Assembly: GCF_964355755.1 (NCBI RefSeq)
Contig: NC_092674.1
Coordinates: forward strand, 30,180,001-30,244,000
Direction of reading: 5' to 3'
From: Antedon mediterranea
Taxonomy: Eukaryota; Echinodermata; Crinoidea; Comatulida; Antedonidae
Length of the DNA stretch: 64,000 nt
Shown here: positions 7,483 to 61,586 of the stretch, one piece after another
Numbering within the stretch: position 1 is the stretch's first letter
How the letters are laid out: each line of letters opens with the position of its first letter
Program-made: the position numbers and the translations under genes
Notes under the pieces: generated by a model
Database searches by the model: none
Told to the model about the DNA's origin: nothing
Seen by the model: only the letters and a program-made list of their open reading frames with translations

Positions 7483-8867
7483 TAAAAAATGGCACGATAG
7501 ATACTATATATCTGGCGCTCTGTTTTTGGTAGGCCACCATATAAAAGCTTAATAATAATCTGTAAAACTGAGTACACCTTTTAATATTTAAAACTTCCAT
7601 TAAAATATGTCTTTGAACTTAGCCAATTAAAAGGTCAGGACCAATTTAAATGATATTAAAGCAACTGCCGCTTAAACTAGATACTGGTGTACACTTGCCA
7701 ATTCCTTTTCTATTTTGAAACAAAATTCACCCATTTTCTTGCAGTAAAATAGCAATTACTACAGTAGAACACTTTTTATATGACCCCTAATGTTGAAGTT
7801 TTGAATACCATATTTGGTGCTCATAATATTTACTCTGGTCTGTATTTTTGGCCAAGTTGGTAAAAAACAAGATTACTCATGTTTCAACATAGATTAAAAC
7901 ATTTGATTTATTTTCTGCTCCTACTACTTGCAATACCCATGCCTTACTTGACAGTGAAACGTTAGCCCTGTATACATGTGCAGAATTTCATCTTATAATC
8001 TGAGGCTTGGAGTCGTTGAGCCAGAGCTTGACCCCCTGCTGTGAATGGTGTCATTTGACATTGACCTCGGCAAGGAAGTTACTAAATCCTTTAGGGCGCA
8101 CGGCCTAATCTGCACTGCAGGGCGCCCACCAAACTAAATTTGTTCTCCTCGGAAGAACGAGCGAGTTGTCGATAAAAATAAACAGGGAGATGATATAGCA
8201 AGCCAACAGATGCTGTTATAATTAGTCTCGTCTGTATCCCCTAACGATGGAACTGTAATTAACGCGTGTTAGTAGTTAACTGCAACTATTTTGCAACTGC
8301 AAAATCAATTTAGAATTAAATATTTTGGTTAAATTTTAAATATCTCTGTTAAAAAATCATTTTTTTGTTTTCCTATAAATTTAGTATTTTCATTATTTTC
8401 ACTTTTTTTAAATGTCAGAAATACTTTGTGACAATAAAACAAATTTTTGATAAAACACAATGGTCACAAACATTTTTGAAAATACAGCTAAACTATAAAA
8501 TTGTAATAAACAAAAAGATTTTATGACGAACAATTGTCACAAAACTCAATTTAAAAGATTGTCACAAAAGTTTTGTAACAATAGAAATAAAATGCACATT
8601 TTTAAGACGATTAAATTAAAGACGTTAGGATTTGTGATGTCACGTTTAGTTTACCTGATGTCAATGAATGTTGTAATGCCTACATGACCTGGAAGTGACC
8701 TTCTTGTTTCCACATCATCACCCTTTGACCTTTTACTTCAAGCTTTTAAATCTTCATTTAAGGATGTGAAATATGTATGTGCCAGATAGCATTATATCGT
8801 ATGAAACTTGAAGTGTGGTGTAGTAAAGAAAGTGCATCGTTTGAAACTTTGCCACAAAGTAAATTGC
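7483..8867. other. Non-coding stretch, no gene seen
   Basis: No plausible open frame or exon. The 8280-8620 part is extremely AT-rich and contains repeated TTGTCACAAAA-like words, perhaps a decayed repeat. Nothing else is visible. Confidence 0.55.
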
Positions 8868-12510: not shown

Positions 12511-13224
12511 ATGTTGATGTGTGCTAACCCTAACTCCATCAAGGTACAGTCATTATGTTGATGTGTGCTAACCCTAACTCCATCAAGGTACAGTCATTAT
12601 GTTGATGTGTGCTAACCCTAACTCCATCAAGGTACAGTCATTATGTTTGATGTGTGCTAACCCTAACTCCATCAAGGTACAGTCATTATGTTGATGTGTG
12701 CTAACCCTAACACCATCAAGGTACAGTCATTATGTTTGATGTGTGCTAACCCTAACTCCATCAAGGTACAGTCATTATGTTTGATGTGTGCTAACCCTAA
12801 CACCATCAAGGTACAGTCATTATGTTGATGTGTGCTAACCCTAACTCCATCAAGGTACAGTCATTATGTTGATGTGTGCTAACCCTAACTCCATCAAGGT
12901 ACAGTCATTATGTTTGATGTGTGCTAACCCTAACTCCATCAAGGTACAGTCATTATGTTGATGTGTGCTAACCCTAACACCATCAAGGTACAGTCATTAT
13001 GTTGATGTGTGCTAACCCTAACACCATCAAGGTACAGTCATTATGTTTGATGTGTGCTAACCCTAACTCCATCAAGGTACAGTCATTATGTTGATGTGTG
13101 CTAACCCTAACACCATCAAGGTACAGTCATTATGTTGATGTGTGCTAACCCTAACACCATCAAGGTACAGTCATTATGTTGATGTGTGCTAACCCTAACT
13201 CCATCAAGGTACAGTCATTATGTT
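12511..13224. repeat. 44/45-bp minisatellite, 16 copies, with telomere-like core
   Basis: Sixteen head-to-tail copies of a unit containing GATGTGTGCTAACCCTAAC followed by TCCATCAAGGTACAGTCATTAT. Copies differ at two main sites: GTTGATG or GTTTGATG (hence 44 or 45 bp), and CTCC or CACC. Every unit contains CTAACCCTAAC, nearly two telomeric CCCTAA repeats. Copies are otherwise almost identical, which points to recent expansion or homogenisation. Confidence 0.95.
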
Positions 13225-18845: not shown

Positions 18846-19796
18846 GCAACACAAACAAGCTGCAAATTGTTTAAAATAACTATATTTTAAAAACAATTTC
18901 TGCTATTTGTTTCTGAAATGAATTGGATGGAATTGAATTGAAATGAATTGATGGAATTGACTACAAATAGCACAACATAATACTGTAGGCCTACCATAAA
19001 TTAAAATTATTTTTTTCTTTAGGCATGAATTGTCATTTACCGCATCTGCTTCTCATCATTAACTGTCATCAAAAGATGCCTTTTATATTTTCAAAATTTA
19101 AACTACTGTATTACCAAACACCAAAAAGACAAAATGGCATAGAAAGCATAACAATACCAAATCATAAATCCAAGATAGAAGATAAAAAATTAACAAAAAT
19201 TACAAAAAATGGTCAAGATTTAGAAAAGAAAAACATAGTACTTTCAATATAGTTCACACAAACTCCAATACCCATTTCTGGGACAACTTTTATCATCAGT
19301 CTCTGAAGGGTAAATGACAGGGTTGTCATGGGCCTCCATAGACTAGCTACGCACAAGAGCTAGGCAGCAGCCAACAAGTCTGCATGCAGATCTCCTGAAG
19401 CCCTGTACAGTGAGGTAGGCAGGTGTGTTGCTATGAAATATAGCTATGATGACAGTTACAGGCGTACATAATAAAATTTACCGTTTATTACCAACACATT
19501 TGAGTCCCTGCTGGATGCAGAGTAAACTATGTTGTTTTTTTCAAAGTCTAGGCAAGTCAGTTAGCCAAGCATATTAATCTGATTTGTGAATTTAGCCTGG
19601 TTTTTTATTGGAATAGGGAAAAATATCAACATGGGAGAAACCTATATGAGATATACCAAAGTGAAAATGTTATAGGGCGCTTGTTACTCTCTTCACAACT
19701 CATGCGTTTAATCAGCTTTGAGAAGGCCTCATTTGCTTGGGCATGTTGTAGTCAGACACCATTTTATCCATCAAGCATGAAATCAAAATGTCCTTA

Positions 19797-20120
19797 AATT
19801 AAGAGGAGTAAACAAAAGTAAGAGGAGTAAACAAAAGTAAGAGGAGTAAACAAAAGTAAGAGGAGTAAACAAAAGTAAGAGGAGTAAACAAAAGTAAGAG
19901 GAGTAAACAAAAGTAAGAGGAGTAAACAAAAGTAAGAGGAGTAAACAAAAGTAAGAGGAGTAAACAAAAGTAAGAGGAGTAAACAAAATTAAGAGGAGTA
20001 AACAAAATTAAGAGGAGTAAACAAAATTAAGAGGAGTAAACAAAAGTAAGAGGAGTAAACAAAAGTAAGAGGAGTAAACAAAAGTAAGAGGAGTAAACAA
20101 AAGTAAGAGGAGTAAACAAC
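19797..20120. repeat. 19-bp minisatellite, about 17 copies
   Basis: Head-to-tail copies of AAGAGGAGTAAACAAAAGT. Three neighbouring copies (about 19979-20037) share an AAAATT variant in place of AAAAGT, which fits local duplication of a variant block. The repeat-encoded minus-strand open frames are by-products. Confidence 0.95.
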
Positions 20121-20415: not shown

Positions 20416-20637
20416 AAGACCCCTTCCCTGCAATTTTGGACGTTTTTTGGAAAATAATACATATATATCACTTTAAAAACATTAAACCATGTCATTCCTT
20501 GTCTTAAATGTACGTTTTATGGTAAATTATGATAAAAAGTGAGAAACAATGCACTACCTAAGTAGTGTTGTGAACGGCGCCCGTTGGGTAAACAGACCAC
20601 CCCGCCGACCGAACGAGGGCGTCGCCCCGATAGCCTG

Positions 20638-20662
20638 ATTTGCATACAGGGGGTATGCAAAT
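20638..20662. promoter_or_regulatory. Inverted octamer (POU-type) motifs in the LTR
   Basis: ATTTGCATAC, five bases AGGGG, then GTATGCAAAT: a perfect 10-bp inverted repeat. Each arm contains the ATGCAAAT octamer or its complement, the classical binding word of POU-homeodomain factors such as Oct proteins. The same block is in the 3' LTR at 26542-26566. A role as an LTR enhancer is inferred. Confidence 0.5.
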
Positions 20663-20806
20663 GTTAACGTGGGACCTCGACGCCGCCCGAGCTGGTCTAT
20701 TCGAAGCAGGAACCAAGGAGAAACGGACACAACCGGAATTGACCAAGATATTTGGATTTACTGCTTACGGATACTTGTGTGATTTAGGACAAGCGGGACT
20801 GTTAAG

Positions 20807-20812
20807 GTAAGC
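20807..20812 (+). promoter_or_regulatory. Putative leader splice donor in the 5' LTR
   Basis: GTTAAG/GTAAGC matches the donor consensus well. A donor in the transcribed leader is how retroelements make subgenomic mRNAs. Joined to the acceptor at 25361 it would place the ORF3 ATG two bases into the second exon. Use of the site is inferred. Confidence 0.35.
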
Positions 20813-20864
20813 CTAGTAGCTTTCATTATCAGGCCATTCCAGCACCGACCTAAAATCACAACAT

Positions 20865-20882
20865 TGGCGCTGCGAGCAAAAG
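20865..20882 (+). other. Putative primer-binding site
   Basis: TGGCGCTGCGAGCAAAAG begins one base after the LTR with TGG, the complement of a tRNA CCA end. The matching tRNA would end GCGCCA. The cognate tRNA cannot be named from this window. Bases 20873-20886 also form a small hairpin (CGAGC, AAAA, GCTCG). Confidence 0.6.
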
Positions 20883-22082
20883 CTCGGAAATTTTTTTTTT
20901 TTTGGTGGGGAGGCGGGTGCCTTGATTGCCAGCTGGCATTCTTAACGTGATCGGGTTGATTGCGAGGTATTTTGTCCTCTGCTGAAACTATTAACTTATT
21001 GTACTTACGGTGCATTTGTTAGTTTATTGAAGTTGGTATATTTATTGAAGATTACAACATACCGGTAAAGTTAATCACGCAGTATTGTGGCATTTGGATA
21101 CTTGCTGATTAGCGTATCGACGGGGTAGTCAATGCGTACCGGGAGTTGTATTAATATTTTGCTATAGTTGAAGGATTAGTGGGCAGTTTACTAGGCCGTA
21201 TCACCTGGTGGGATACTAGGCGTGGCCGTTGAACTGAGTGGCACCACTAATTTTAACTTTGATTGTTTTTTATTGATAACATCTTTTTCGTCCATCAGTC
21301 AGGTTTTTCATCTTGAGAAATTATACTGGCTGTGTGTAATATATTGTGTTAACTTCACAGTGGCATTACCGCTTTCCTTTCTTTGCATCGGGGGAAGGTT
21401 TAGTGGTAAGTGTTGTTAAACTGTATCGACGTCTTTTTATTAATCTAGTTGCTTGTTATTGCAGGTTTGCTGGTGCAATATTTTAACTGTATTTGTATCG
21501 CCAGCTGCCATTTTGCAATATTTGTGTGCGTGTTATTGCATTGACGATATTTTATTCTATTGTTGGGCCTGTAATTTTTATTACGTCTGGCGGTATTTTA
21601 ATTTGTATCGTACTCTTTGCTTGATAACATCTGTTATCTCACACTGCAGCTAGTTTTACCACACTGAAGATCGTAAAGTGTTACTTACAACTTTTACTCC
21701 GTGCCAGTCTGTTTTCTTCTGGAAAGCTTGAAGACTGTTCACGTGATTTGTGACTTCAACTTCACACGCTGATTATCACTGCCTTTCTGTGGAGGGGAGT
21801 GGTCTGGTGATCAGTGTTCGTTGAGCATTACCAAGATCTGGATTTGAAGTATCGTCATCATTTGAATGCTGTGCAATTGGTGAATGTATCACAAATGTTT
21901 TAATAGTTTTATGCCCATTTTAATAGTACAGGCATTGGTATTTTATGGCATTTTACATTCCTAGTTTATACACAGTATTCATCTTAAACCGGATAAGTAC
22001 TAGTGGCAGAACATACATTTAGATACATTTTAATGAAAGTCTTTGACTTCTGGCAATACTTTTATATCGTATGTTTTAAAGG
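20883..22082 (+). other. Retrotransposon leader, 1.2 kb
   Basis: No long open frame. A good donor (GTG/GTAAGTG at 21406) and acceptor (GTTATTGCAG at 21455-21464) bound a possible 59-nt intron, so the leader may be spliced. Short open frames at 21222-21419 and 21453-21653 encode cysteine- and phenylalanine-rich peptides without recognised domains, and I do not call them genes. Confidence 0.5.
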
Positions 22083-24536
22083 ATGCCTCATGTTGCAATA
22101 AATTTCTGGACAGAGCCGGAGCTCGTCCATCTACTAGGAAAAAGAGCTAGGAAAATTACTGATTGGAGGTCCAAATTTGGAAATATTAGAGCCTGTGACT
22201 TAGAATATTTAACTGGAATCAAGTGCTTGTCATCCAAAACGACTCGCTGGGATTTCACACCGAATCCTCAATTAGTGAGTAGTTGGGTTCAGAACACTAG
22301 CACTCCTCAACTGTTCCATGCAGCACAAGTTCCATTTGGAACTTATTCCGGTGATTTACCTGGTGGTAGTTTCTCATGGAGACACACCAGTACCAACCAA
22401 CCTAGTTCTGACCACAGAGAAAAGACAGATTCAGGTTGTAGGAATACTCACTATAGGTATGCAACCAAAGCAGAATGTCAACCAATATCTGAACTGTTAG
22501 CTTTAGACTCTAGTCTTAATGTACGGGGTCACCATTGCACTAAAGGTAGTAAAACCTCAAAAACTAGATCTGTGTCTAAGCTTTGTAGATTACTGACAGA
22601 GGATTGTTTCAGTGACTCTTCTAGTAGCTCTAGTCTTATGGACTCCAGCTCTAGTAATGATGAGAGTTGTACAAGTGACGAAGATAGTGATCAGGATAGG
22701 GCTTATGGTAAATATTCTACGAGTGTTCAATCTAGAAGACGACACTCGCATAGGCATTCCCAACGATCACAAAAACTATTGAGACAGAAAGACATTCCCA
22801 AGTCTCTAACTTTTAATGGCTGGGATGATGACTGGTATCCTTTTAAGAAACGGTTTAGATCTTTCGCAAAGGCGCAGAACCTTACCACCGGGGATAGTAA
22901 AAATGCCCTTTTTTGGTGTATGGAGGGACCTGCGGCGAAGTTCTTAACCAATCTTTTAAGGATGGAGCCAACATTAGACTTCAAAGAGATGATGGATGTC
23001 CTCAGTGTACGTTTCGGAGACGGTGAGCGGTCTCTAAAACAGGAACGACACGAAACTATAGAAAAATGGGGACGTAGAGTCATGACTGTAACCGAGAAAG
23101 CCTGTAGTGATCTACCTAGATCTAGAGTGCAAAAGCTACAGGTGGAATGGTTCTGCACTGGGTGTCACGACAAGGATGCTGGTGAGTATGTTTCACGGAA
23201 ACATTGTGCTACTATCACCGAAGCTCTTGAAAAATATAGGAGGTTTGACTGTCGCCGCAAAGGGTTGTACAGAGAGCATGGGAGAAAAGTCAGAAATGAT
23301 TTAATGCCCCGTACTAGGTCTATGACTTATACTCTCTGTAGCTCAACCCATCATCACATATCCTCACACGAAGATGAAGCCGAAAACCATTATCAAGCTT
23401 CTGAAATCTGGAGTAGGCCGAAAGCGGAGTCATCAATTGGAGAAGAGGACGTGCCCAACGGGAAATCTCTTACCATGATGGAGGCTGCAGGGCGGCAAGG
23501 TAAAAACAGACTTCCTGGCACATCCGATGAACTCCAACTTTTGGCATCTTACTCCTCACCAACATCGGACATGCTTCCTGTAGCAGACCCATGTATTACC
23601 ATGGAACAACCAGAGACCACAGAACGAGGGTCCATTTTACCCACTGGTGAAATGCCTAACCTTGTCACACCAACCAGTGAATTGACAAGAAAGAAGAAAA
23701 GTCAAGAATCAGTGTCAAAATCTGCCCGTGCTAATCTGGATTTCCCAGTGGTTGACTCATGGTTGGCTAGCATTTCGGGTCAGGAAAGGACACATACAGC
23801 ACACACCACAGCTCTTGACTTCACAGTGGTTGAATCATGTTTAGCCACCCTTGTTGAAGACCTAGAAGAGAGGATTAAGGTACCAGTGCCTGATTTCCCA
23901 GTGTTTAATCCAGGGGAGAAGCCAGGAAAAACTAAACCCGATGGTACCAAAGAACCACGTAGACGACGGCAACTACCCACCATTCCGGTAGAGTGGCCTG
24001 AACCAACATGGAGTCCACAAACTCCAGAACAACACAGACGATGGCCGCAACTACCTACCAATCTGGTAGGTAAGCCTGAACTACCTCGACGAAGACGGAG
24101 ATTACCTACCGTTCCGAAAGAAAGACAAACTGTGGTATCCGCTTTTTCTGTTGCTGATATCCAATCGGCCAGTATTGGAGTCTGTAACACTCCAGTGATT
24201 TCGGTCACAACTGGATCTGATCGGGCTAGTTGTAAACCGGCTGCGAAAGATGTGGGGTCGACCACAGTGGAGGTTACTACCGGATTGACAGACCAACCCC
24301 AGGTTAGAATGGTAACTGAAGTACCCCCTGAACACAAGGTAAGTATGCTTTGTCTTTCAGGTACAGAGTTTACGGTGATATCTTCCTTTCCTATCAGAAA
24401 GCAAGCCCGTAGCTCTCAACGGTTACATTCTTGGGTACTCACCCCGACTAGACCTGGGGTTCTACACAGCAGGACTGAGAAAGTAGACCCCAAGCTAGCT
24501 GGGACGATTCCGTGGGATCCAGGAGGTGAAACTTAA
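22083..24536 (+). CDS. Gag-like protein of the LTR retrotransposon
   Basis: An 817-codon ORF starting at the first ATG of a long open frame. Residues 1-160 are unrecognised. About 170-210 is a serine/aspartate-rich acidic tract, then comes a short basic stretch (RRRHSHRHSQRSQK). Residues 240-395 have the style of a retrotransposon Gag capsid domain: 'LTFNGWDDDWYPFKKRFRSF', then ALFWCMEGPAAKFL, a helical spacing and an arginine-rich end. That style is known from Gypsy-type Gag (retrotrans_gag family). No CCHC zinc knuckle is visible. The C-terminal third is rich in proline, threonine and arginine, with three related PTIP/PTNL/PTVP blocks near 640-680. A strong splice donor in codon phase 0 at 24339 would replace the last 65 residues with the PHD exon at 25070. 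The unspliced RNA would give the 817-residue form. The protein presumably builds the cytoplasmic particle that packages element RNA. The capsid assignment is by pattern, not by a database search. Confidence 0.75.
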   Translation: MPHVAINFWTEPELVHLLGKRARKITDWRSKFGNIRACDLEYLTGIKCLSSKTTRWDFTPNPQLVSSWVQNTSTPQLFHAAQVPFGTYSGDLPGGSFSWRHTSTNQPSSDHREKTDSGCRNTHYRYATKAECQPISELLALDSSLNVRGHHCTKGSKTSKTRSVSKLCRLLTEDCFSDSSSSSSLMDSSSSNDESCTSDEDSDQDRAYGKYSTSVQSRRRHSHRHSQRSQKLLRQKDIPKSLTFNGWDDDWYPFKKRFRSFAKAQNLTTGDSKNALFWCMEGPAAKFLTNLLRMEPTLDFKEMMDVLSVRFGDGERSLKQERHETIEKWGRRVMTVTEKACSDLPRSRVQKLQVEWFCTGCHDKDAGEYVSRKHCATITEALEKYRRFDCRRKGLYREHGRKVRNDLMPRTRSMTYTLCSSTHHHISSHEDEAENHYQASEIWSRPKAESSIGEEDVPNGKSLTMMEAAGRQGKNRLPGTSDELQLLASYSSPTSDMLPVADPCITMEQPETTERGSILPTGEMPNLVTPTSELTRKKKSQESVSKSARANLDFPVVDSWLASISGQERTHTAHTTALDFTVVESCLATLVEDLEERIKVPVPDFPVFNPGEKPGKTKPDGTKEPRRRRQLPTIPVEWPEPTWSPQTPEQHRRWPQLPTNLVGKPELPRRRRRLPTVPKERQTVVSAFSVADIQSASIGVCNTPVISVTTGSDRASCKPAAKDVGSTTVEVTTGLTDQPQVRMVTEVPPEHKVSMLCLSGTEFTVISSFPIRKQARSSQRLHSWVLTPTRPGVLHSRTEKVDPKLAGTIPWDPGGET

Positions 24537-25069
24537 TGGATGCTGTCACTTCTGACTGCGCTTTCTGAGTGTAGTCTACAAGAATCTTGACGGAATCAAA
24601 CTGGAATTGTGCCCATGACGACGGAGCAGTTGAGTTGACTCGTTTCCACTGGAAACCTCAACTTAACTCACATCAATATCAACCTGCCAAATGGTTGCAT
24701 TACTTTTGCTCGTGGCAATGTAATGTACATTTGTTGAACTCAGGTTGATCTTGGAAGTTGCTGCAGATGGTAAGTATAGTGATGCAGGAGCTGATATCTG
24801 TACATCAGTATGCCTCCTGAGCTTCACACTTACCATGATGATGTAGAAGAAGACGTACAGAACCCACATTTCAGGGAGTGTCCCCGGTGTATTCAAGCTA
24901 GTGTGAGAAAGGTGGAATGCTTCCCTTTTAGAATGGGGAGGTGTGTTGTGAAAGGGGTCTCACGCTTGAATATCCTGTCCAGTTTGCTCATTTGCATGTA
25001 AATCAGCTGGTTGAAATGCAGGGTTGACCCCACCAGGATAGGCTGGTTATTAGTTCTTGTTTTTTTCAG
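24339..25069 (+). other. Predicted intron joining gag to the PHD exon
   Basis: The donor CAAG/GTAAGTATG at 24339 matches the consensus almost perfectly. The acceptor TTCTTGTTTTTTTCAG ends at 25069. The 731-nt segment contains the gag stop codon and no other coding signal. The upstream exon ends on a codon boundary (gag codon 752) and the downstream open frame begins on one, so removal keeps the frame. Confidence 0.65.
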
Positions 25070-25330
25070 GTGCAGCTGAGAAATAAGACGGTGGTTTTAA
25101 ATCATGACAAGCTGGCTGATTTTAATTTACCTCCTCTTTCTTCACCTACAGATCCGGATGCAGGACCGTTGTATTGTCTATGTCGCCAGCCCTGGGCCGG
25201 CTCGTTTATGATACAATGTGACTATTGCGAGGTGTGGTACCACGGTGCATGTGTGAATATTGCACTATCTGAGGCCTGGGACATTGACTTATATCGATGT
25301 GCGGACTGCAAGTCCTCAGTTAACAATTAA
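25070..25330 (+). CDS. PHD-finger exon, predicted C-terminus of a Gag-PHD fusion
   Basis: An 86-codon open frame that lacks its own ATG at the start and follows a strong acceptor. It ends in TAA. Residues 31-80 form a complete C4HC3 PHD finger: Y-C-L-C, C-D-Y-C, H-G-A-C and C-A-D-C pairs in order. Surrounding residues match the PHF2/PHF8/KDM7 class closely (FMIQCDYCEVWYHGACV, then DIDLY before the last cysteine pair). Members of that class bind histone H3 trimethylated on lysine 4, using the tryptophan of the V-W-Y-H stretch and aromatic neighbours, which are kept here. Fused to Gag, it could tether element particles or preintegration complexes to active promoters. That role is inferred. Capture from a host gene is likely, and PHD domains are known in some CR1-type retrotransposon proteins. 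Confidence 0.8.
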   Translation: MQLRNKTVVLNHDKLADFNLPPLSSPTDPDAGPLYCLCRQPWAGSFMIQCDYCEVWYHGACVNIALSEAWDIDLYRCADCKSSVNN

Positions 25331-25363
25331 GTACTCACGTTTACCTTCTCTTCTTCCTCAGAT

Positions 25364-26542
25364 ATGGATCAGTTACCGTTTGCTGACGGAAGTGATACGG
25401 AGATTTCCGAGATTTCCGAGATGGAGGAGGATGTGCTCTTGGCTAGTCCGGGGGTACAGGAGGAACTGACGGTGGCTGGGAATACGGGAGGGGCTTGCCC
25501 GGCGGCGAGCACCCCAGCCAAGGGGAAACCAATCTGCCATCTGATGACCCCGAAAGAAGAGGCAGCGGCTGGGGATACGAGAGGGGCTTGCCCGGTGGCG
25601 AGCACCCCAGCCGAGCGGAAACTAAAATGCCATCTGGGATGTGGTCCAGTGAGCAACATACGGGTCCACGTCACGAAGACGCATGCCCCGGCATGTTTCC
25701 GGCCACTGGAACGGAGTTCTTGGCGGAGGGCACGAGTGCAGTGGCGGGCACTCACCAGTTTGGCAGCGGAGGGCCTTGGTAAAGGCAGAACACCAGAGGA
25801 CCTGAGATGTCTCCTGAACGTCCAGCACCTTATGGGGGATGGCACTGATGTCCTACCTCCGGATAGGAAAACTCGTAGTGCCATCCTTATGCTGACACGG
25901 GTGATTGGGGGAAAGAGGCCCCCGCCTCTCACGATAGCTCCGGTTATCAGTCACCCGTCGGCTCTCATACACTGGCGCTGTGTGATCGCTCTCATCGCCT
26001 CTTTTGGTGAGGAGTTGGTGAAGGAGTGTGGTCGTCGGGCTGAGGAGGAGGAGCCGGCAGTGGACCAGATCGCCACTTACCCCACCGAGCGGGAGATTGG
26101 TGGACTGGCGAGGAACGGCTGTGCGGTGGGCTTGGGAGTGGCTCCTGGCTACTCGCCGACAACGGTCCAATTCGATAGGCTCCTAGCCTTAGCCCGAACT
26201 CGAGATGTTCGAGTAATCGGGAGAGTGGGATTGGACCATTCGGCCCCGCCTACAGATTGGCCGAGACAAGATCTGCTGCTAAAGAGGGTGTTGGGTCGTT
26301 GCTTGGACGGCCGCCACCACCGCATCACGGCTAGCGACTACCTGAAGGGATCGTTGGAAGCGGTCTACATAGCTACGGGTATTGGGTATTTTTTCACGTA
26401 CGAAAATCACCCGGTTTACCCCCGAGGTGGATCCAGGACGGGGTGCCCGCTTTTCAAACACGGGAGGAGTGTTGTGAACGGCGCCCGTTGGGTAAACAGA
26501 CCACCCCGCCGACCGAACGAGGGCGTCGCCCCGATAGCCTGA
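25364..26542 (+). CDS. ORF3: zinc finger plus TatD-like segment
   Basis: A 392-codon ORF, more GC-rich than its surroundings. Its ATG lies two bases after a strong acceptor (TTCTCTTCTTCCTCAG ends at 25361), so it is probably made from a spliced RNA. Residues 38-60 and 69-91 are a tandem duplication with a period of 31. A possible zinc finger follows: C89, C93, H102 and H107 (C-X3-C-X8-H-X4-H). Residues 250-312 resemble the middle of TatD-family metal-dependent nucleases: CAVGLG, then VRVIGRVGLDHSAPPTDWP followed by RQDLLLKRVL, like the family's A-V-G-I-H-P ... GEIGLD ... Q motifs. The N-terminal H-X-H metal motif is not seen, and the glutamate of GEIGLD is arginine here. It is therefore probably not an active nuclease. 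The last 24 or so residues are encoded by the 3' LTR. The function is unknown. Confidence 0.65.
   Translation: MDQLPFADGSDTEISEISEMEEDVLLASPGVQEELTVAGNTGGACPAASTPAKGKPICHLMTPKEEAAAGDTRGACPVASTPAERKLKCHLGCGPVSNIRVHVTKTHAPACFRPLERSSWRRARVQWRALTSLAAEGLGKGRTPEDLRCLLNVQHLMGDGTDVLPPDRKTRSAILMLTRVIGGKRPPPLTIAPVISHPSALIHWRCVIALIASFGEELVKECGRRAEEEEPAVDQIATYPTEREIGGLARNGCAVGLGVAPGYSPTTVQFDRLLALARTRDVRVIGRVGLDHSAPPTDWPRQDLLLKRVLGRCLDGRHHRITASDYLKGSLEAVYIATGIGYFFTYENHPVYPRGGSRTGCPLFKHGRSVVNGARWVNRPPRRPNEGVAPIA
26462..26469 (+). other. Short polypurine tract
   Basis: GGGAGGAG lies directly before the TG of the 3' LTR, where the plus-strand primer of an LTR element is expected. It is short and lies within ORF3. 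Confidence 0.5.
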
Positions 26543-26767
26543 TTTGCATACAGGGGGTATGCAAATGTTAACGTGGGACCTCGACGCCGCCCGAGCTGGT
26601 CTATTCGAAGCAGGAACCAAGGAGAAACGGACACAACCGGAATTGACCAAGATATTTGGATTTACTGCTTACGGATACTTGTGTGATTTAGGACAAGCGG
26701 GACTGTTAAGGTAAGCCTAGTAGCTTTCATTATCAGGCCATTCCAGCACCGACCTAAAATCACAACA
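26470..26767 (+). repeat. 3' LTR
   Basis: 298 bp, reading the same as the 5' LTR at every position I compared. It encodes the end and TGA stop of ORF3 and carries the second copy of the inverted octamer block (26542-26566). It is followed by the target duplication GTAG (26768-26771). Confidence 0.95.
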
Positions 26768-27250
26768 GTAGCTTGCGGCGATCGAACTCTCGTGGACGGT
26801 CTTAGGCCTAGCCTAGCTAGGCTTAGTTTTGTAGGCCTAGCTGGTAAACATCGGTAACGTACGAACATCGTACGCTAGCTATATACCTAGCCTGACGTTG
26901 TATAGTTGCTGCATTAATTGTCTTTCTATTTTTGCCAGACTCCGTTGATACAAATTGGGGGAAACCCGGTATTTTCGCTGAATAGTTAGGAGTCTTCCAT
27001 TTGTTTTGGCCTCACGATCGATCGAAAAGTGGGCGAATTACAGGGGGAAAAAAAATATCAATCCGCGCGCAATGCATTTTGGGATTTATAGCGGGCCGCT
27101 ATAATTATTAGAATCGACTTATTTTTCACATTTTTAACCGTTTAAAGACGAAAAAGGTTATCGCAATAGGACCATATAGTATTATTTTTACATTAAATAT
27201 AGTTTGTAATCTTAAATTAGATCTCAAAAACATAGGGAAGGGGGCTTTAA

Positions 27251-35440: not shown

Positions 35441-35505
35441 ACACATGAAATAAAATTAACTGTTACAGGTAAACGTATAACACATATTACAACCTATAAA
35501 TCACA

Positions 35506-36786
35506 CAGTAACTGTATTTCACTCAGTAACTGTATTTCACTCAGTAACTGTATTTTTCTCAGTAACTGTATTTCACTCAGTAACTGTATTTCACACAGTA
35601 ACTGTATTTCACTCAGTAACTGTATTTCACTCAGTAACTGTATTTTTCTCAGTAACTGTATTTTTCTCAGTAACTGTATTTCACTCAGTAAACTGTATTT
35701 CAATCCGTAACTGTATTTCACTCAGTAACTGTATTTCACTCAGTAACTGTATTTTTCTCAGTAACTGTATTTCAATCTGTAACTGTATTTCACTCAGTAA
35801 CTGTATTTCACTCAGTAACTATATTTCACTCAGTAACTGTATTTCAATCCGTAACTGTATTTCACTCAGTAACTGTATTTCACTCAGTAACTGTATTTCA
35901 CTCAGTAACTGTATTTCACTCACAGTAACTGTATTTCACTCAGTAACTGTATTTCACTCACAGTAACTGTATTTCACACAGTAACTGTATTTCAGTCACA
36001 TTAACTGTATTTCACTCAGTAATTGTATTTCAGTCACAGTAAATGTATTTCACTCAGTAACTGTATTTCACTCACAGTAACTGTATTTCACTCACAGTAA
36101 CTGTATTTCAATCAGGTGTGGAGTTGTGGCTTTGTGGTTATGATGCTTGGCTACCACTCCAAGGGTCCTGGGTTCAAGTCCCGTCACATGTTAGGATTTT
36201 TTCTAAGGACCAAATTACAACTCCACTCTCAAAGACTTGTAATAAGACTTTGTTTATGTAGAGCATCTTGTGTATATGTTTGTCTTGTGAACCTCTGAGG
36301 GTCCCTAATGATCAGCATTAGCTGGATGGATCACCCTCATTAAATATGGTTTAAAAAAAAGTAACTGTATTCCACTCACAGTAACTGTATTTCACTCAAA
36401 GTAACTGTATTTCACTCAGTAACTGTATTTCACTTACAGTAACTGTATTTCACTCAGTAACTGTATTTCACTTACAGTAACTGTATTTCACTTACAGTAA
36501 CTGTATTTCACTCAGTAACTGTATTTCACTCAGTAACTGTATTTCACTCAGTAACTGTATTTCACTCACAGTAACTGTATTTTACTCACAGTAACTGTAT
36601 TTCACTCAGTAGGCCTAACTGTATTTCACTCACTAACTGTATTTCACTCACTAACTGTATTTCACTCAGTAACTGTATTTCACTCAGTGACTGTATTTCA
36701 CACAATAACTGTATTTCGCTCACATTAGCTGTATTTCAATCAGTACCGTAACTATATTTCACTCAAATTAACTGTATTTCACTCAA
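35506..36786. repeat. 18-bp minisatellite, more than 50 copies, interrupted by a SINE
   Basis: The unit is CAGTAACTGTATTTCACT, with a 20-bp variant carrying an extra CA (CTCACAGTAACTG), which is more common in the right half. The array is split by a SINE at about 36114-36360 and resumes immediately after the SINE's A-tail. Several copies carry point changes (TTTCTC, AATCCG). Confidence 0.95.
36114..36360 (+). mobile_element. tRNA-derived SINE, full length
   Basis: The head has an A-box-like TGGCTTTGTGGTTATGATG (36126-36144) and a perfect-looking B box GGGTTCAAGTCCC (36170-36182), as in a tRNA. The body is unrelated sequence. The tail (CTCTGAGGGTCCCTAATGAT, then a GGATGGATCACCCTCA block and ATTAAATATGGTTT) ends in A8. 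The tail is shared with the copies at 43.8-44.0 kb. The flanking minisatellite makes the target duplication ambiguous. Confidence 0.85.
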
Positions 36787-38640: not shown

Positions 38641-39132
38641 GTGCAATGATGGGGTGCACAATCTTGTAGCCAGGGAGTTTGAACAAACCCTCTGGCCTTT
38701 TATACCAGCATCGAAAGTGCTAGTGCAATGATGGGGTACACAAGCATGTGGCCAGGGAGTTTGAACAAACCATCTGGCCTTTTAGACCAGCATCGAAAGT
38801 GCTAGTGCAATGATGGGGTACACAAGCATGTGGCCAGGGAGTTTGAACAAACCATCTGGCCTTTTAGACCAGCATCGAAAGTGCTAGTGCAATGATGGGG
38901 TACACAAGCATGTGGCCAGGGAGTACGAACAAACCCTCTGGCCTTTTAGACCAGCATCGAAAGTGCTAGTGCAATGATGGGGTACACAAGCATGTGGCCA
39001 GGGAGTTTGAACAAACCATCTGGCCTTTTAGACCAGCATCGAAAGTGCTAGTGCAATGATGGGGTACACAAGCATGTGGCCAGGGAGTACGAACAAACCC
39101 TCTGGCCTTTTAGACCAGCATCGAAAGTGATA
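38641..39132. repeat. 82-bp tandem repeat, 6 copies
   Basis: Units start at 38641, 38723, 38805, 38887, 38969 and 39051 with GTGCAATGATGGGGTACACA. Each unit can fold: GGCCAG pairs with CTGGCC, and in most units GTTTG pairs with CAAAC around a two-base loop. Units 4 and 6 carry GTACG instead of GTTTG and CCCTC instead of CCATC, so the array has an alternating pattern in its second half. Confidence 0.92.
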
Positions 39133-40104
39133 GTAAATATATCCTATATTACAGCATAGAAATATCATAGTGCTATAATATCTCTATGATTATGTGATTA
39201 GAAGTATGTTTCCATACTTATTTGATCCAAAAAAATGACTGGGGTAATAATGTTCAGCGCTTAGATGTTTGCACACCATTTGTTTCAGAACATTAGGCGC
39301 TATATAAATCCAGGATATTATTATATAGGCATATCTCAAGACAATTTTGTTCGGGTATTGTACCTACAATAGTGCAGTCAGTAATGGACCATAAGGCAGT
39401 GGGCTATCTTAAAAAGTGTTAATGAATATTCAAGAGAAGACCCGATCTTTTCCACAATTACAGTCCATATATGTGTTAAGCTTTTACATCACGTCCACCT
39501 TTGAATGGCGGATCGGGTGGTGCAGGCCTTGTTTTTCTTTAAATTGTAGGTGTGCTACAAAATTGCACTCCTCAATACATTCAGGGGAGCTATAGGTGTT
39601 TGTATTTTGGTCTGTAGAAGTTTACCAAATTTAAGTCAAAGTGCAGTTTAGGAGTGTGTTAGGTGAGTGATCGCACTCGCTCACCTCAAAAGAAAACGCC
39701 TGGTGGTGGCGGATCCAGGATTTTGAAATAAGGGACTGCATGGTTGAACAAAACATTATATTATTATCTCTATCCTTTGTATTGTTTTTGTATGAAGATG
39801 AATATGCAAAAAAGAAATGTAGGCCTATAGTACTGTATTTCTATTGTAGCTTAATTTTAGCTTTTTTCATTCAATAAAATTTAATATATTGTCATTTTAA
39901 ATATAAAAATATATGATTGTAAATATATGTATTTAATTGCTGTAACATAAAATAGTAGAGTGAGTGATTGATGGATTTGTTTCCAATAACGCCCTAGGAG
40001 TCATCATGTTCATGCTATTTATAGAATAATGTTGTATGGAGAAGAGAGCACGTAGTTTGTTTTCTGTTTGGCATTCCTTGTTTGTAAAGCAAATCTAAAA
40101 TTAC
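39133..40104. other. Non-coding stretch, no gene seen
   Basis: No open frame or repeat that I can support. Confidence 0.5.
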
Positions 40105-54085: not shown

Positions 54086-54734
54086 CGTTATACAGGTTAA
54101 ACAAATTATGTTGAATTCTATAAAGAAATTTAATTTAGGCTACATCTGGGGTTTCTTGCATACAGTTTCCATTAAACTGTATGTGGAGTGAGGGTGGGGT
54201 AAAAATAGAAATACTGTTTTTTGGGATTTGTTTTCTTTTGTTTTAGGCAAATTACTACAGTCTTACTTTCAAGCAGTGTTTTTATGTTTGGACCATAAAT
54301 TGTTGTTTTTTTTTAAATTATTAATTAATACTTCCAGCAAATATCAGGTTTAATTTTACAAGACTATCATAAGCAATTAAAATTTTTCAAGCCGGAAATA
54401 ATATAGCTTTTCATTTTATGCTTTTCATTTGTCATTTGTTTCCAATCTAACACATATGTCCATTGCAAACATTGTCAATATTAATTAAGTTTTCTTTCCT
54501 GTTTACGCAAAGTTTTGGTATAATGAAATGTGTTGTACTGTATTAGTGGGAAATGCCATTTTTAATAATGCATGTACATATTTCTGTGTCATTGGCAGCT
54601 CATGTAATGCATTTCTTTACAAGCTTACAAAATGATTATACTCGGGTCTTTACGCGGGCGCAAGAATGAACAACCACTTCCTGGAACCTGGGTCTTGTGC
54701 ACAGCGAGGGCACAAACATGACACGAAACTGAGA
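54086..54734. other. Non-coding stretch, no gene seen
   Basis: No supported feature. Confidence 0.5.
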
Positions 54735-55108
54735 AATAACAATCTATCTATGTCTATGTGCATGAGCTACAGTACTGTAGAAGCCATTAAATAACAATCT
54801 ATCTATGTCTATGTGCATGAGCTACAGTACTGTAGAAGCCATTAAATAACAATCTATCTATGTCTATGTGCATGAGCTACAGTACTGTAGAAGCCATTAA
54901 ATAACAATCTATCTATGTCTATGTGCATGAGCTACAGTACTGTAGAAGCCATTAAATAACAATCTATCTATGTCTATGTGCATGAGCTACAGTACTGTAG
55001 AAGCCATTAAATAACAATCTATCTATGTCTATGTGCATGAGCTACAGTACTGTAGAAGCCATTAAATAACAATCTATCTATGTCTATGTGCATGAGTACT
55101 GTAGAAGC
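54735..55108. repeat. 55-bp minisatellite, about 7 copies
   Basis: Near-identical units start AATAACAATCTATCTATGTC at 54735 and every 55 bp after. Each contains the perfect 14-bp palindrome CTACAGTACTGTAG. The last unit has lost six bases of that palindrome. A further fragment with one change (CTACAGTACGGTAG) lies at about 55646-55682, beyond an insertion. Confidence 0.93.
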
Positions 55109-60767: not shown

Positions 60768-61538
60768 TCATAACATCCCAGTAACGTTCGACCTTTTACA
60801 TTTGCAACCAGTTTCTTGACGCGTTGAACATTTCCTACAACAAGAAAGGCACGCCTTTCCCGGCAAATAGCACAGAAGACACGGAAATAAAAGCGACATA
60901 ACTCCAATGGCGGACCACCGTACACAACACTTTTTATGATGGCATGAACAAGGTTCATCCACGTATGCGGTTTCGTCGCCATCATTGCCATTTGTTAAGC
61001 AGTGATAAAACGAACAGCGCACACAGCAAAAACAGGTGGCGGTATCTAAAACAGTTTGTGGTGTGCACCAGCAACGTTCATTTAAAATAAGTTTTCCGAC
61101 TGTTTCACCGGCTAGTTTGCACTTGGGACAACGACACTGTTCACAGTATGGACAAATGTCCGTTTCTTTCGAACACGGCGGTCGTAACGGCGTCGTACTG
61201 TTAGTACTCGTTCTACTTGTTTCACGTTTGACCACTTTTAAAACTTTAGTCTTGCCTTGTAAAGGATCGCTAACTATTATTAAACTAGTCCTTTGGGACT
61301 GGTTAGGGTTTAACCCTGGCACCAGCATATAATCTGAAAATGTTTGTCCAACATTGTTGTTGCTTAGAACGTTCTTACCCCCTTGTCCAGGAGGCGGCAC
61401 ATAATCATTCGACACAGCTTGACCACCAGGGGCATTTTCAAGCGCGTGTAGTTGACCGTTAGATTGACTGTCGGTCAAAATCTGGTTAATAGACTCTGTT
61501 CGTGGCTGCGAAGTGACAACGCCAGCATCATCAGCCAT
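60768..61538 (-). CDS. spry: Sprouty, RTK/MAPK feedback regulator
   Basis: A 256-residue protein with a complete Sprouty (SPR) cysteine-rich domain at about residues 121-248. Hallmarks are CPYCEQCRCPKC (129-140), CFCCVRCSFYHC (169-180), PCSCHHKKCCVRWSAIGVMS (196-215), LLFPCLLCYLPGKACLSCC (216-234) and GCKCK (244-248). There is no EVH1 domain, so it is Sprouty rather than Spred. Sprouty proteins act at membranes to restrain FGF/EGF receptor-Ras-MAPK signalling. NDYVPPP at 44-50 sits where the Cbl-binding tyrosine motif (N-x-Y-S/T-x-x-P) is found; Y46 and the proline at +4 are kept but +1 is valine. A serine/threonine-rich stretch (107-117) precedes the domain. The coding part is a single exon, as is usual for Sprouty genes. 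The ATG at 61538 is the first in-frame one after a splice acceptor. The protein is shorter than the roughly 300-residue vertebrate forms. The assignment is by domain pattern; the paralogue cannot be named. Confidence 0.95.
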   Translation of the reverse strand: MADDAGVVTSQPRTESINQILTDSQSNGQLHALENAPGGQAVSNDYVPPPGQGGKNVLSNNNVGQTFSDYMLVPGLNPNQSQRTSLIIVSDPLQGKTKVLKVVKRETSRTSTNSTTPLRPPCSKETDICPYCEQCRCPKCKLAGETVGKLILNERCWCTPQTVLDTATCFCCVRCSFYHCLTNGNDGDETAYVDEPCSCHHKKCCVRWSAIGVMSLLFPCLLCYLPGKACLSCCRKCSTRQETGCKCKRSNVTGML

Positions 61539-61586
61539 CGGTACTGACGGTTCTATTCCTAATTTCCATATGAGAGCCGATGAGCC
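61539..61586 (-). other. 5' UTR part of the sprouty coding exon and its splice acceptor
   Basis: On the minus strand, TCTTTATTTTTTAG ends at 61587, a good acceptor, 48 bases before the sprouty ATG. A separate upstream non-coding first exon is therefore likely, as in other Sprouty genes. That exon would lie to the right of 61.6 kb and was not identified. Confidence 0.55.

Follow-up and report, generated by a model that had tools for sequence, protein, structure and literature searches.

The subject of this work is an element with long terminal repeats (LTRs) that occupies positions 20566..26767 of a stretch of 64,000 nucleotides (the window) of the crinoid Antedon mediterranea, contig NC_092674.1, positions 30,180,001 to 30,244,000 of the forward strand. 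Its two LTRs, of 298 bp, are identical to each other, and GTAG lies on either flank. It is likely that the element is a young non-autonomous copy of the Ty3/gypsy type, that its family was born of template switching between two other families, named A and B here, and that it is mobilised in trans by A, the family which possesses a pol. The features of the locus, with open reading frames (ORFs) numbered in order, are the following.

20562..20565, unstranded: left target-site duplication GTAG (both flanks match)
20566..20863, + strand: 5′ LTR of A type (TGTTGT...ACAACA), identical to the 3′ LTR over 298 bp
20801..20813, + strand: putative splice-donor-like site inside the LTR (TTAAG/GTAAGC)
20864..21665, + strand: leader, the first 400 bp nearly alike in A and B
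20865..20877, + strand: primer binding site (PBS) TGGCGCTGCGAGC, complement of the tRNA-Ser(UGA) 3′ end plus CCA
21666..25049, + strand: segment of family B origin, ending within B's LTR (from the A/B site comparison)
22083..24536, + strand: ORF1, 817 aa, a remote Gag (from relatives' Gag)
24931..24943, + strand: internal fossil purine tract of family B (sequence match to B)
24944..25049, + strand: first 106 bp of the family B LTR, a recombination-junction fossil (same piece in sibling copies)
25046..25330, + strand: C-terminus of the pol frame of A, open from 25070, with no ATG ahead of the finger
25175..25309, + strand: PHD finger (Pfam; closest solved relatives PHF8 and PHF2)
25345..25363, + strand: putative splice-acceptor-like tract directly ahead of the TatD ATG
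25364..26542, + strand: ORF3, truncated TatD-like ORF whose end reads into the 3′ LTR (comparison with sibling copies)
26457..26469, + strand: 3′ polypurine tract (PPT), from the sequence
26470..26767, + strand: 3′ LTR of A type, identical to the 5′ LTR
26768..26771, unstranded: right target-site duplication GTAG (both flanks match)

The preliminary description of this DNA had recorded identical LTRs, a GTAG duplication, a PBS and a purine tract, all of which were borne out. Its statement that reverse transcriptase (RT), RNase H, integrase and protease are lacking was upheld too: RT, RNase H, integrase core and protease were not found by Pfam in the three ORFs, and tblastn of two related pols against the element gave a match only at the C-terminal PHD end. 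The protease-RT-RNase H-integrase pol of an autonomous Ty3/gypsy element was thus absent from the window element, and it was present in two relatives, L018 and L026. Two other claims stood in part. Long intact ORFs had been reported, and the 817 aa of ORF1 and the PHD finger are indeed there, but ORF3 is truncated and its frame runs into the LTR. As to the proposed gene set of gag, PHD and TatD, ORF1 is a Gag only through its relatives, and the window's own ORF3 scores below the Pfam cut-off for TatD (16.9 of 27 bits), its TatD identity resting on the sequences of sibling copies.

The 13 nt of the PBS are the complement of the 3′ terminus of tRNA-Ser(UGA) as encoded in the host, CCA included. 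A pattern derived from it had 40 genomic matches; ARAGORN, run on four of them, recognised tRNA-Ser(UGA) in two and no tRNA in the other two. On contig 11 (826539-849799), 36 matches to the tRNA-Ser-end pattern are clustered, many of them at a spacing of about 168 bp, an arrangement that is probably a tandem array of tRNA genes.

The host genome (354 Mb, 18 contigs) was searched, and the window LTR had at least 40 matches in it. Grouping by position assigned 40 of them to seven pol-less copies (14 matches), eight copies of family A (16 matches) and older or partial sequences (10 matches). The pol-less copies are the one in the window, L009, L010, L011, L012/L013 (a single copy with insertions), L014 and L015. 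All seven have matching 4-bp target duplications, and pol beyond the PHD end is missing from every one of them, so that the case which was to refute the first account, a lone deletion derivative among copies with pol, did not arise. Full lengths were 7066 bp for L009, 7062 bp for L010 and 6202 bp for the window copy. ORF1 is open over 817 codons in three of the seven copies, and a TatD ORF of 570-571 aa is open in three of the seven as well.

The partner that had been looked for, with pol and with matching LTR, PBS and PPT, was found in the same genome as family A (L018-L025). A full-length pol match was obtained by tblastn in the eight copies, in a single unbroken piece in five of them, and the pol of L018 reads protease, RT, RNase H, integrase and PHD. 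The LTRs of A copies are 87-97% identical to the pol-less LTR. In the copies measured, four pol-less and seven of A, the LTR pairs showed 0-2 differences of 298, and the duplications matched in five of the seven A copies, L021 and L024 being the exceptions. The PBS was identical in the four pol-less copies and in six of the seven A copies compared, with an altered one in L021; the PPT was the same in the pol-less and A copies compared, except for a tract 3 nt shorter in L009 and for one base upstream in L024. L021, whose own PBS is altered, has a primer-site-like sequence beyond its 3′ LTR, and its right flank looks like a tandem or recombined arrangement. From the cis sequences common to both families, the window copy is probably a young member of a non-autonomous family mobilised in trans by A.

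The TatD ORF is absent from all eight A copies, the L021 locus having one TatD-like piece of 27 aa. In a more distant element, L026, gag is followed by a pol ending in PHD and by a TatD ORF, and relative to L028 it can be said that L018 lost TatD through a deletion of about 1.6 kb. TatD would be either dispensable to A or supplied to it in trans.

The other contributor, family B, is represented by L016 (a complete short element of 3.4 kb), L017 (a 5′ part only) and a lone LTR on contig 8. The LTR type of B differs from that of A, no pol match was found by tblastn in L016 and L017, and both carry ORF1 at 97-98% identity, apart from one 39-aa piece at 92%. Typing made use of the sites fixed for different bases between A (six copies) and B (two copies), and covered five pol-less copies (window, L009, L010, L011 and L015). 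In these five, the LTR was A-like at 122-124 of 126 sites (123 in the window), int 1101-2000 was B-like at 378-385 of 386 sites, and the switch from A to B fell at int 1051-1100 (about 21,616-21,665 in the window). Over int 299-1050, the copies L009, L010, L011 and L015 were A-like at 125 of 126 sites combined. In the window leader, 17 of the 19 sites as far as int 1000 (about 21,565) were of B type, most of them from 21,265 onward, and the 13 sites between there and the common switch to B were all of A type. This B patch was unique to the window copy among the five; it also shows as an excess divergence of 5-6% from the siblings in int 501-1000. The site pattern thus indicates that the patch at 21265-21565 reflects a further recombination.

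The second junction lies inside B's LTR, whose first 106 bp are present in six of the seven pol-less copies, and from 25046 on the window sequence corresponds to A's pol end, TatD and 3′ end. L012 has a variant of this junction (about 8630-8730), with 67 bp of B's LTR followed by some 15 nt matching TatD coding sequence and then by A's pol end; the stretch of about 15 nt is possibly a templated patch. The 5′ LTR of L014 (L038) is a hybrid, made of B's 106 bp, about 15 nt of junction and A's LTR from base 151, in an element flanked by matching CAGT duplications. It would fit plus-strand priming at the fossil B purine tract and a jump before integration. In blocks of 500 bp, divergence between copies beyond int 4501 is for the most part 0-1.2%, rising to 3.2% in short blocks; in int 501-4000 of L010 it is mostly 1-4% (0.4-5.8%). 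The lower divergence of the 3′ part indicates that it was shared more recently, and so that recombination continued.

Concerning the leader, identity between A and B in each 100 bp of int 301-700 is 93-100%. A conserved packaging signal was considered and is not needed to account for this identity, which is attributed to recent exchange because in L027, an old copy, identity over LTR and leader is down to 86%. The pol-less family is a mosaic: from A come its LTRs, the greater part of its leader and its 3′ part, from B its ORF1 region, with a B LTR fossil inside. The suggestion that the gene set had been assembled for a function found no support: ORF1 came from a gag-only family, the PHD finger belongs to the tail of pol in the partner, and a TatD ORF stands third in the older copies of that partner.

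ORF1 gave no hit at E≤0.001 among 6525 candidates in a protein search, and Pfam returned only a sub-threshold match to DUF1759. Compared to the Gag ORFs of A copies, it is 38-39% identical over about 240-260 aa, and its N-terminal segment aligns with the helix-hairpin-helix part of relatives' Gag. A capsid-like helical region was predicted at about residues 230-398 (block pLDDT 55-86), the C-terminal half being of low confidence. A CCHC zinc knuckle was not found in ORF1 by Pfam, and one is present in the Gag of L026. By these comparisons ORF1 is a remote Gag, recognisable as such only via its relatives. A protease remnant suggested by eye at the end of ORF1 was discarded, since 67 of 500 shuffles scored equally well; what the end does hold is a short remnant of A's pol linker (PWDPGG), an 8-residue match equalled by none of 500 shuffles.

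The PHD finger was matched by Pfam (PF00628, E 1.1e-9), the C4HC3 zinc ligands could be read from the sequence, and the closest solved relatives were PHF8 and PHF2 (1wep, 2.7e-16), whose fingers we take to be readers of H3K4me3. The PHD ORF has no ATG ahead of the finger. Since the pols of A and L026 end in PHD, the window's finger is the end of a pol frame. The architecture of a pol with integrase and then PHD is common: with an integrase-PHD query, 115 of the 120 matches listed, out of 1899, carry PF00628, and the named sources among those listed include molluscs and the sea urchin Lytechinus. In the pol-less element the finger is probably a passenger. The alternative, that it is spliced in frame onto ORF1, would use a candidate donor at 24338/24339 and an acceptor at 25069/25070, both of phase 0. 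The donor is present in the window copy, L009, L010, L014 and L015, L012 and the shortened L016 ORF1 being without it, and the acceptor-like tract doubles as coding sequence of A's pol; because of these two facts the splice is put forward only as a weak suggestion.

Compared to the 570-aa ORF of L009 and L010, the 392-aa ORF3 of the window has lost 303 bp (junction at about 26,073) and 566 bp (about 26,326). Only the first loss is divisible by three; with the second the frame shifts, and ORF3 runs into the LTR. That the missing pieces were spliced introns was ruled out, as their boundaries are not GT-AG. In the sibling L010 the TatD domain was matched by Pfam (PF01026, E 2.1e-8). The AlphaFold model of L010 had an overall pLDDT of 53 and was confident only over that domain, where the blocks of residues 341-570 mostly reached 67-92. 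With this model Foldseek retrieved 12 PDB chains at E≤0.001, ten of them TatD-type nucleases or TATDN3 and two a yeast amidohydrolase, and in a viral library a single match at that threshold, an uncharacterised protein of Yasminevirus. Among named proteins, the TatD ORFs had their best relatives in two of the crinoid Anneissia japonica, with 37% and 51% identity to the L026 ORF.

The metal ligands were mapped by aligning Glu, two His and Asp to E. coli YcfH, and the HxH pair, which falls outside that alignment, was placed through the comparison of relatives. The ligands HxH, E, H, H, D are kept in L026 and in Anneissia P0002, and L029-L034 keep every ligand that is covered, HxH or D being uncovered in three of the six. 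In the subfamily of the pol-less copies five of the six ligand positions are substituted (H>C, E>R, H>E, H>A, D>N) and the remaining His is kept; the pol-less copies and the relatives with TatD, L027, L028 and L043, show C-x-H, R, E, A, N wherever covered, save that L013 has G for R. Two metal ligands are gone from the other Anneissia japonica protein, P0001, in which Asn replaces the second His and Pro the Glu. In the element L031 the TatD domain comes directly after the integrase core (pol 967-1240, TatD 274-540, at most 10 bp apart), which suggests a fusion or a deletion.

Selection on TatD was assessed on the branch that separates five pol-less copies (L009, L010, L011, L014 and L015) from three older ones (L027, L028 and L043), the window copy and L012/L013 being left out and the branch being unrooted. 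On it, 21 of 64 changes were nonsynonymous, against 43.0 expected from mutation types (p=2e-8); for the TatD domain alone the figures were 6 of 25 and 16.6 (p=1.9e-5). The private changes of the older copies look neutral, with 12 of 16 nonsynonymous in L027 (11.0 expected), 9 of 14 in L028 (9.7) and 16 of 19 in L043 (13.3). As the active site is substituted at both ends of the branch, it is simplest to consider that the constraint acted on a protein devoid of an intact site. The substitution pattern thus indicates that the TatD of this subfamily lost its active site and yet stayed under purifying selection, as a pseudoenzyme, though part of the selected branch may lie in pol-bearing carriers.

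For ORF1, Nei-Gojobori ratios were 0.29-0.98 among copies and 0.72, 0.70 and 0.88 against the older relatives L035-L037. The ratios among copies look lower than the outcome of the test that takes mutation types into account, and the latter was preferred. With it, the gag of A gave a clear signal (9 of 27 shared changes nonsynonymous, 19.1 expected, p=6e-5; 36 of 58 single ones, 41.6 expected), so the test is able to detect selection in these data. When ORF1 was divided into three regions (eight copies), nonsynonymous changes were 21 of 36 in the first 210 codons, against 26.6 expected (p=0.03, for a single region out of the three tested), and 27 of 43 (31.0 expected) and 64 of 86 (62.5 expected) in the other two. 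In the PHD finger, the differences among pol-less copies were too few for a clear selection signal. The purifying selection across the ORFs that had been anticipated was therefore met in TatD, with the reserve made above about the carriers, and was not clearly seen in ORF1 and PHD.

With these data, the origin of the family may be depicted as follows. RNAs of family A, which has gag and a pol with PHD at its end, to which older copies add a TatD ORF, would have been co-packaged with those of the gag-only family B, and template switching would have put the Gag region of B between the LTR and leader of A and the 3′ end of A, with PHD, TatD and LTR. B was probably a gag-only follower already, so that gaining the LTRs and 3′ end of A would amount to a switch of partner. 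The RT and integrase of A would copy and insert in trans the RNAs bearing A's LTRs, PBS, leader and PPT, and the ORF1 product would probably be a Gag able to assemble together with that of A. In A, the PHD finger would presumably tether the integrase to chromatin marked by H3K4me3. TatD would probably be made from a spliced mRNA, with the LTR donor joined to the acceptor ahead of its ATG, much as the third ORFs of LTR elements are typically made from spliced messages (PMC5408684, partial text). Donor-like sites occur at the same place of the LTR in A (AAG/GTAAG) and B (AAG/GTGAGT), the site being altered in the old L027. The acceptor-like tract precedes TatD in eight of nine copies examined, the search string not being found in L027; L026 has a tract of another form ahead of TatD, with no nearby ATG. 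The protein itself would probably be a non-catalytic component of the particle, perhaps one that binds nucleic acid.

Some observations weigh against this interpretation. Mobilisation in trans by A is deduced from shared cis sequences. ORF1 was without significant purifying selection, 33 of 48 shared changes (35.2 expected) and 94 of 135 single ones (98.5 expected) being nonsynonymous, and one ORF1 control frame was no different (29 of 48, 33.8 expected). TatD was not significant within the pol-less copies alone (31 of 50, 34.2 expected), nor in the domain between the old copies L028 and L043 (19 of 35, 24.0 expected, p=0.05); outside the domain this pair gave 30 of 45, with 31.8 expected. Finally, the TatD of the window copy is broken, which means that an intact TatD in cis was unneeded for that copy, if the losses preceded insertion.

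Several of these points suit a pure hitchhiker, in which only LTR, PBS, leader and PPT would matter and ORF1, PHD and TatD would be unselected leftovers in young copies. It agrees with the 0-2 differences per 298 in the LTR pairs of the four pol-less copies measured, with the lack of significant selection on ORF1 and PHD, with a PHD ORF devoid of ATG and a broken window TatD, and with ORF1 and TatD being each open in only three of seven copies. The selection on the internal branch of TatD is opposed to it, and so is the figure for the first 210 codons of ORF1, with its qualification of one region in three. We regard this explanation as quite possible, if on the doubtful side.

A division of labour may also be conceived, in which A, having deleted its own TatD, uses that of the pol-less family, which in turn uses A's pol. 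None of the eight A copies has a TatD ORF, three of the seven pol-less copies have one open over 570-571 aa, and TatD was under selection; on the other hand, TatD may simply be dispensable, no selection signal on it appears within the pol-less copies alone, and the degenerate TatD-bearing relative L043 also retains an open frame of 532 aa. This arrangement seems rather unlikely. It is with similar reserve that we mention its fullest form, a two-part animal system in which the dead TatD, discarded by A and kept by its pol-less partner, would have a conserved place in the particle, either structural or in the handling of nucleic acid, each partner supplying what the other lacks.

Simple internal deletion from an autonomous element that had this gene set would explain why LTR, leader and 3′ end are common to the pol-less copies and A, but it is very improbable: identity to A's Gag is only 38-39% for ORF1, against about 95% between the LTRs, the fossil B LTR and the A/B switch would be left aside, and searches with ORF1 and with the B LTR, in which only the best candidates were scored, gave no pol-bearing element with ORF1. 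A domesticated cluster of host genes or a restriction factor, to which the open ORFs of some copies and the substituted nuclease site might point, is hardly credible for seven dispersed copies with LTRs and target duplications.

Elsewhere in the window, a 19-bp tandem repeat (17 copies, 99% matches) at 19796-20119 ends about 450 bp ahead of the element, and other tandem arrays were located at 12511-13224, 35501-36785, 38641-39134 and 54734-55103. An ORF of 272 aa with a Sprouty domain (PF05210, E 2.7e-26) lies at 60768-61586 on the - strand.

Turning back to the mosaic element mobilised by A, its nearest parallel is the pair RLG_Quinta/RLG_Cereba of Einkorn wheat, where the Gag of the pol-less partner shows conservation at the protein level and hardly any at the DNA level (PMC11302176; this source and those that follow, in the partial texts available). 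As here, PBS, LTR ends and PPT are common to the partners, Gag regions have been exchanged, which was credited there to template switching, and the partner's integrase has a C-terminal domain thought to direct insertion. Unlike here, the host is a plant, Quinta consists of Gag and a domain of unknown function, with no TatD ORF in the part of the account available, and the LTRs are conserved only in parts, compared to about 95% identity in Antedon (PMC11302176). RLG_Sabrina, WHAM and Angela of wheat are semi-autonomous gag elements, and the Angela systems resemble ours in partner switches through the transfer of LTR sequence, for which gene conversion or template switching was proposed; the available portion of that text describes no PHD or TatD in the three, and it is here that a piece of a former LTR is preserved inside the element (PMC9744471).

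In bdelloid rotifers, TelKA2n is non-autonomous, misses most of pol and keeps ORF3, and among the LTR elements of these animals are types of ORF3 with kinship to a GDSL esterase and a DEDDy exonuclease, both cellular enzymes. The differences are that the ORF3 of TelKA2n is env-like, that the enzymatic ORF3s have intact catalytic residues (DEDD as DEED), and that TatD goes unmentioned in the accessible part of the source (PMC5408684). Integrase-PHD pols follow the same order of protease, RT, RNase H, integrase and PHD as A, the window element retaining the PHD end only. Ginger1 transposases also combine, as A's pol does, an integrase of gypsy type with a C-terminal PHD, but they belong to DNA transposons and their PHD is next to an Ulp1 protease domain (PMC2836005).

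The published pol-less partner systems with a Gag of their own that are considered here are those of wheat (PMC11302176, PMC9744471), to which one pol-less rotifer family may be added (PMC5408684), all as given in partial texts. Among the papers listed by searches of the open-licence literature, none was on TatD in LTR retrotransposons. What is new in the crinoid family is the animal setting, the TatD protein and a legible recombination junction, with the fossil LTR and purine tract inside, and the hybrid LTR of L014 suggests that this internal tract has primed again. The family points to a TatD-type accessory ORF in LTR retrotransposons, and a captured nuclease which lacks its metal ligands and was nevertheless selected offers a testable route to a non-enzymatic role.

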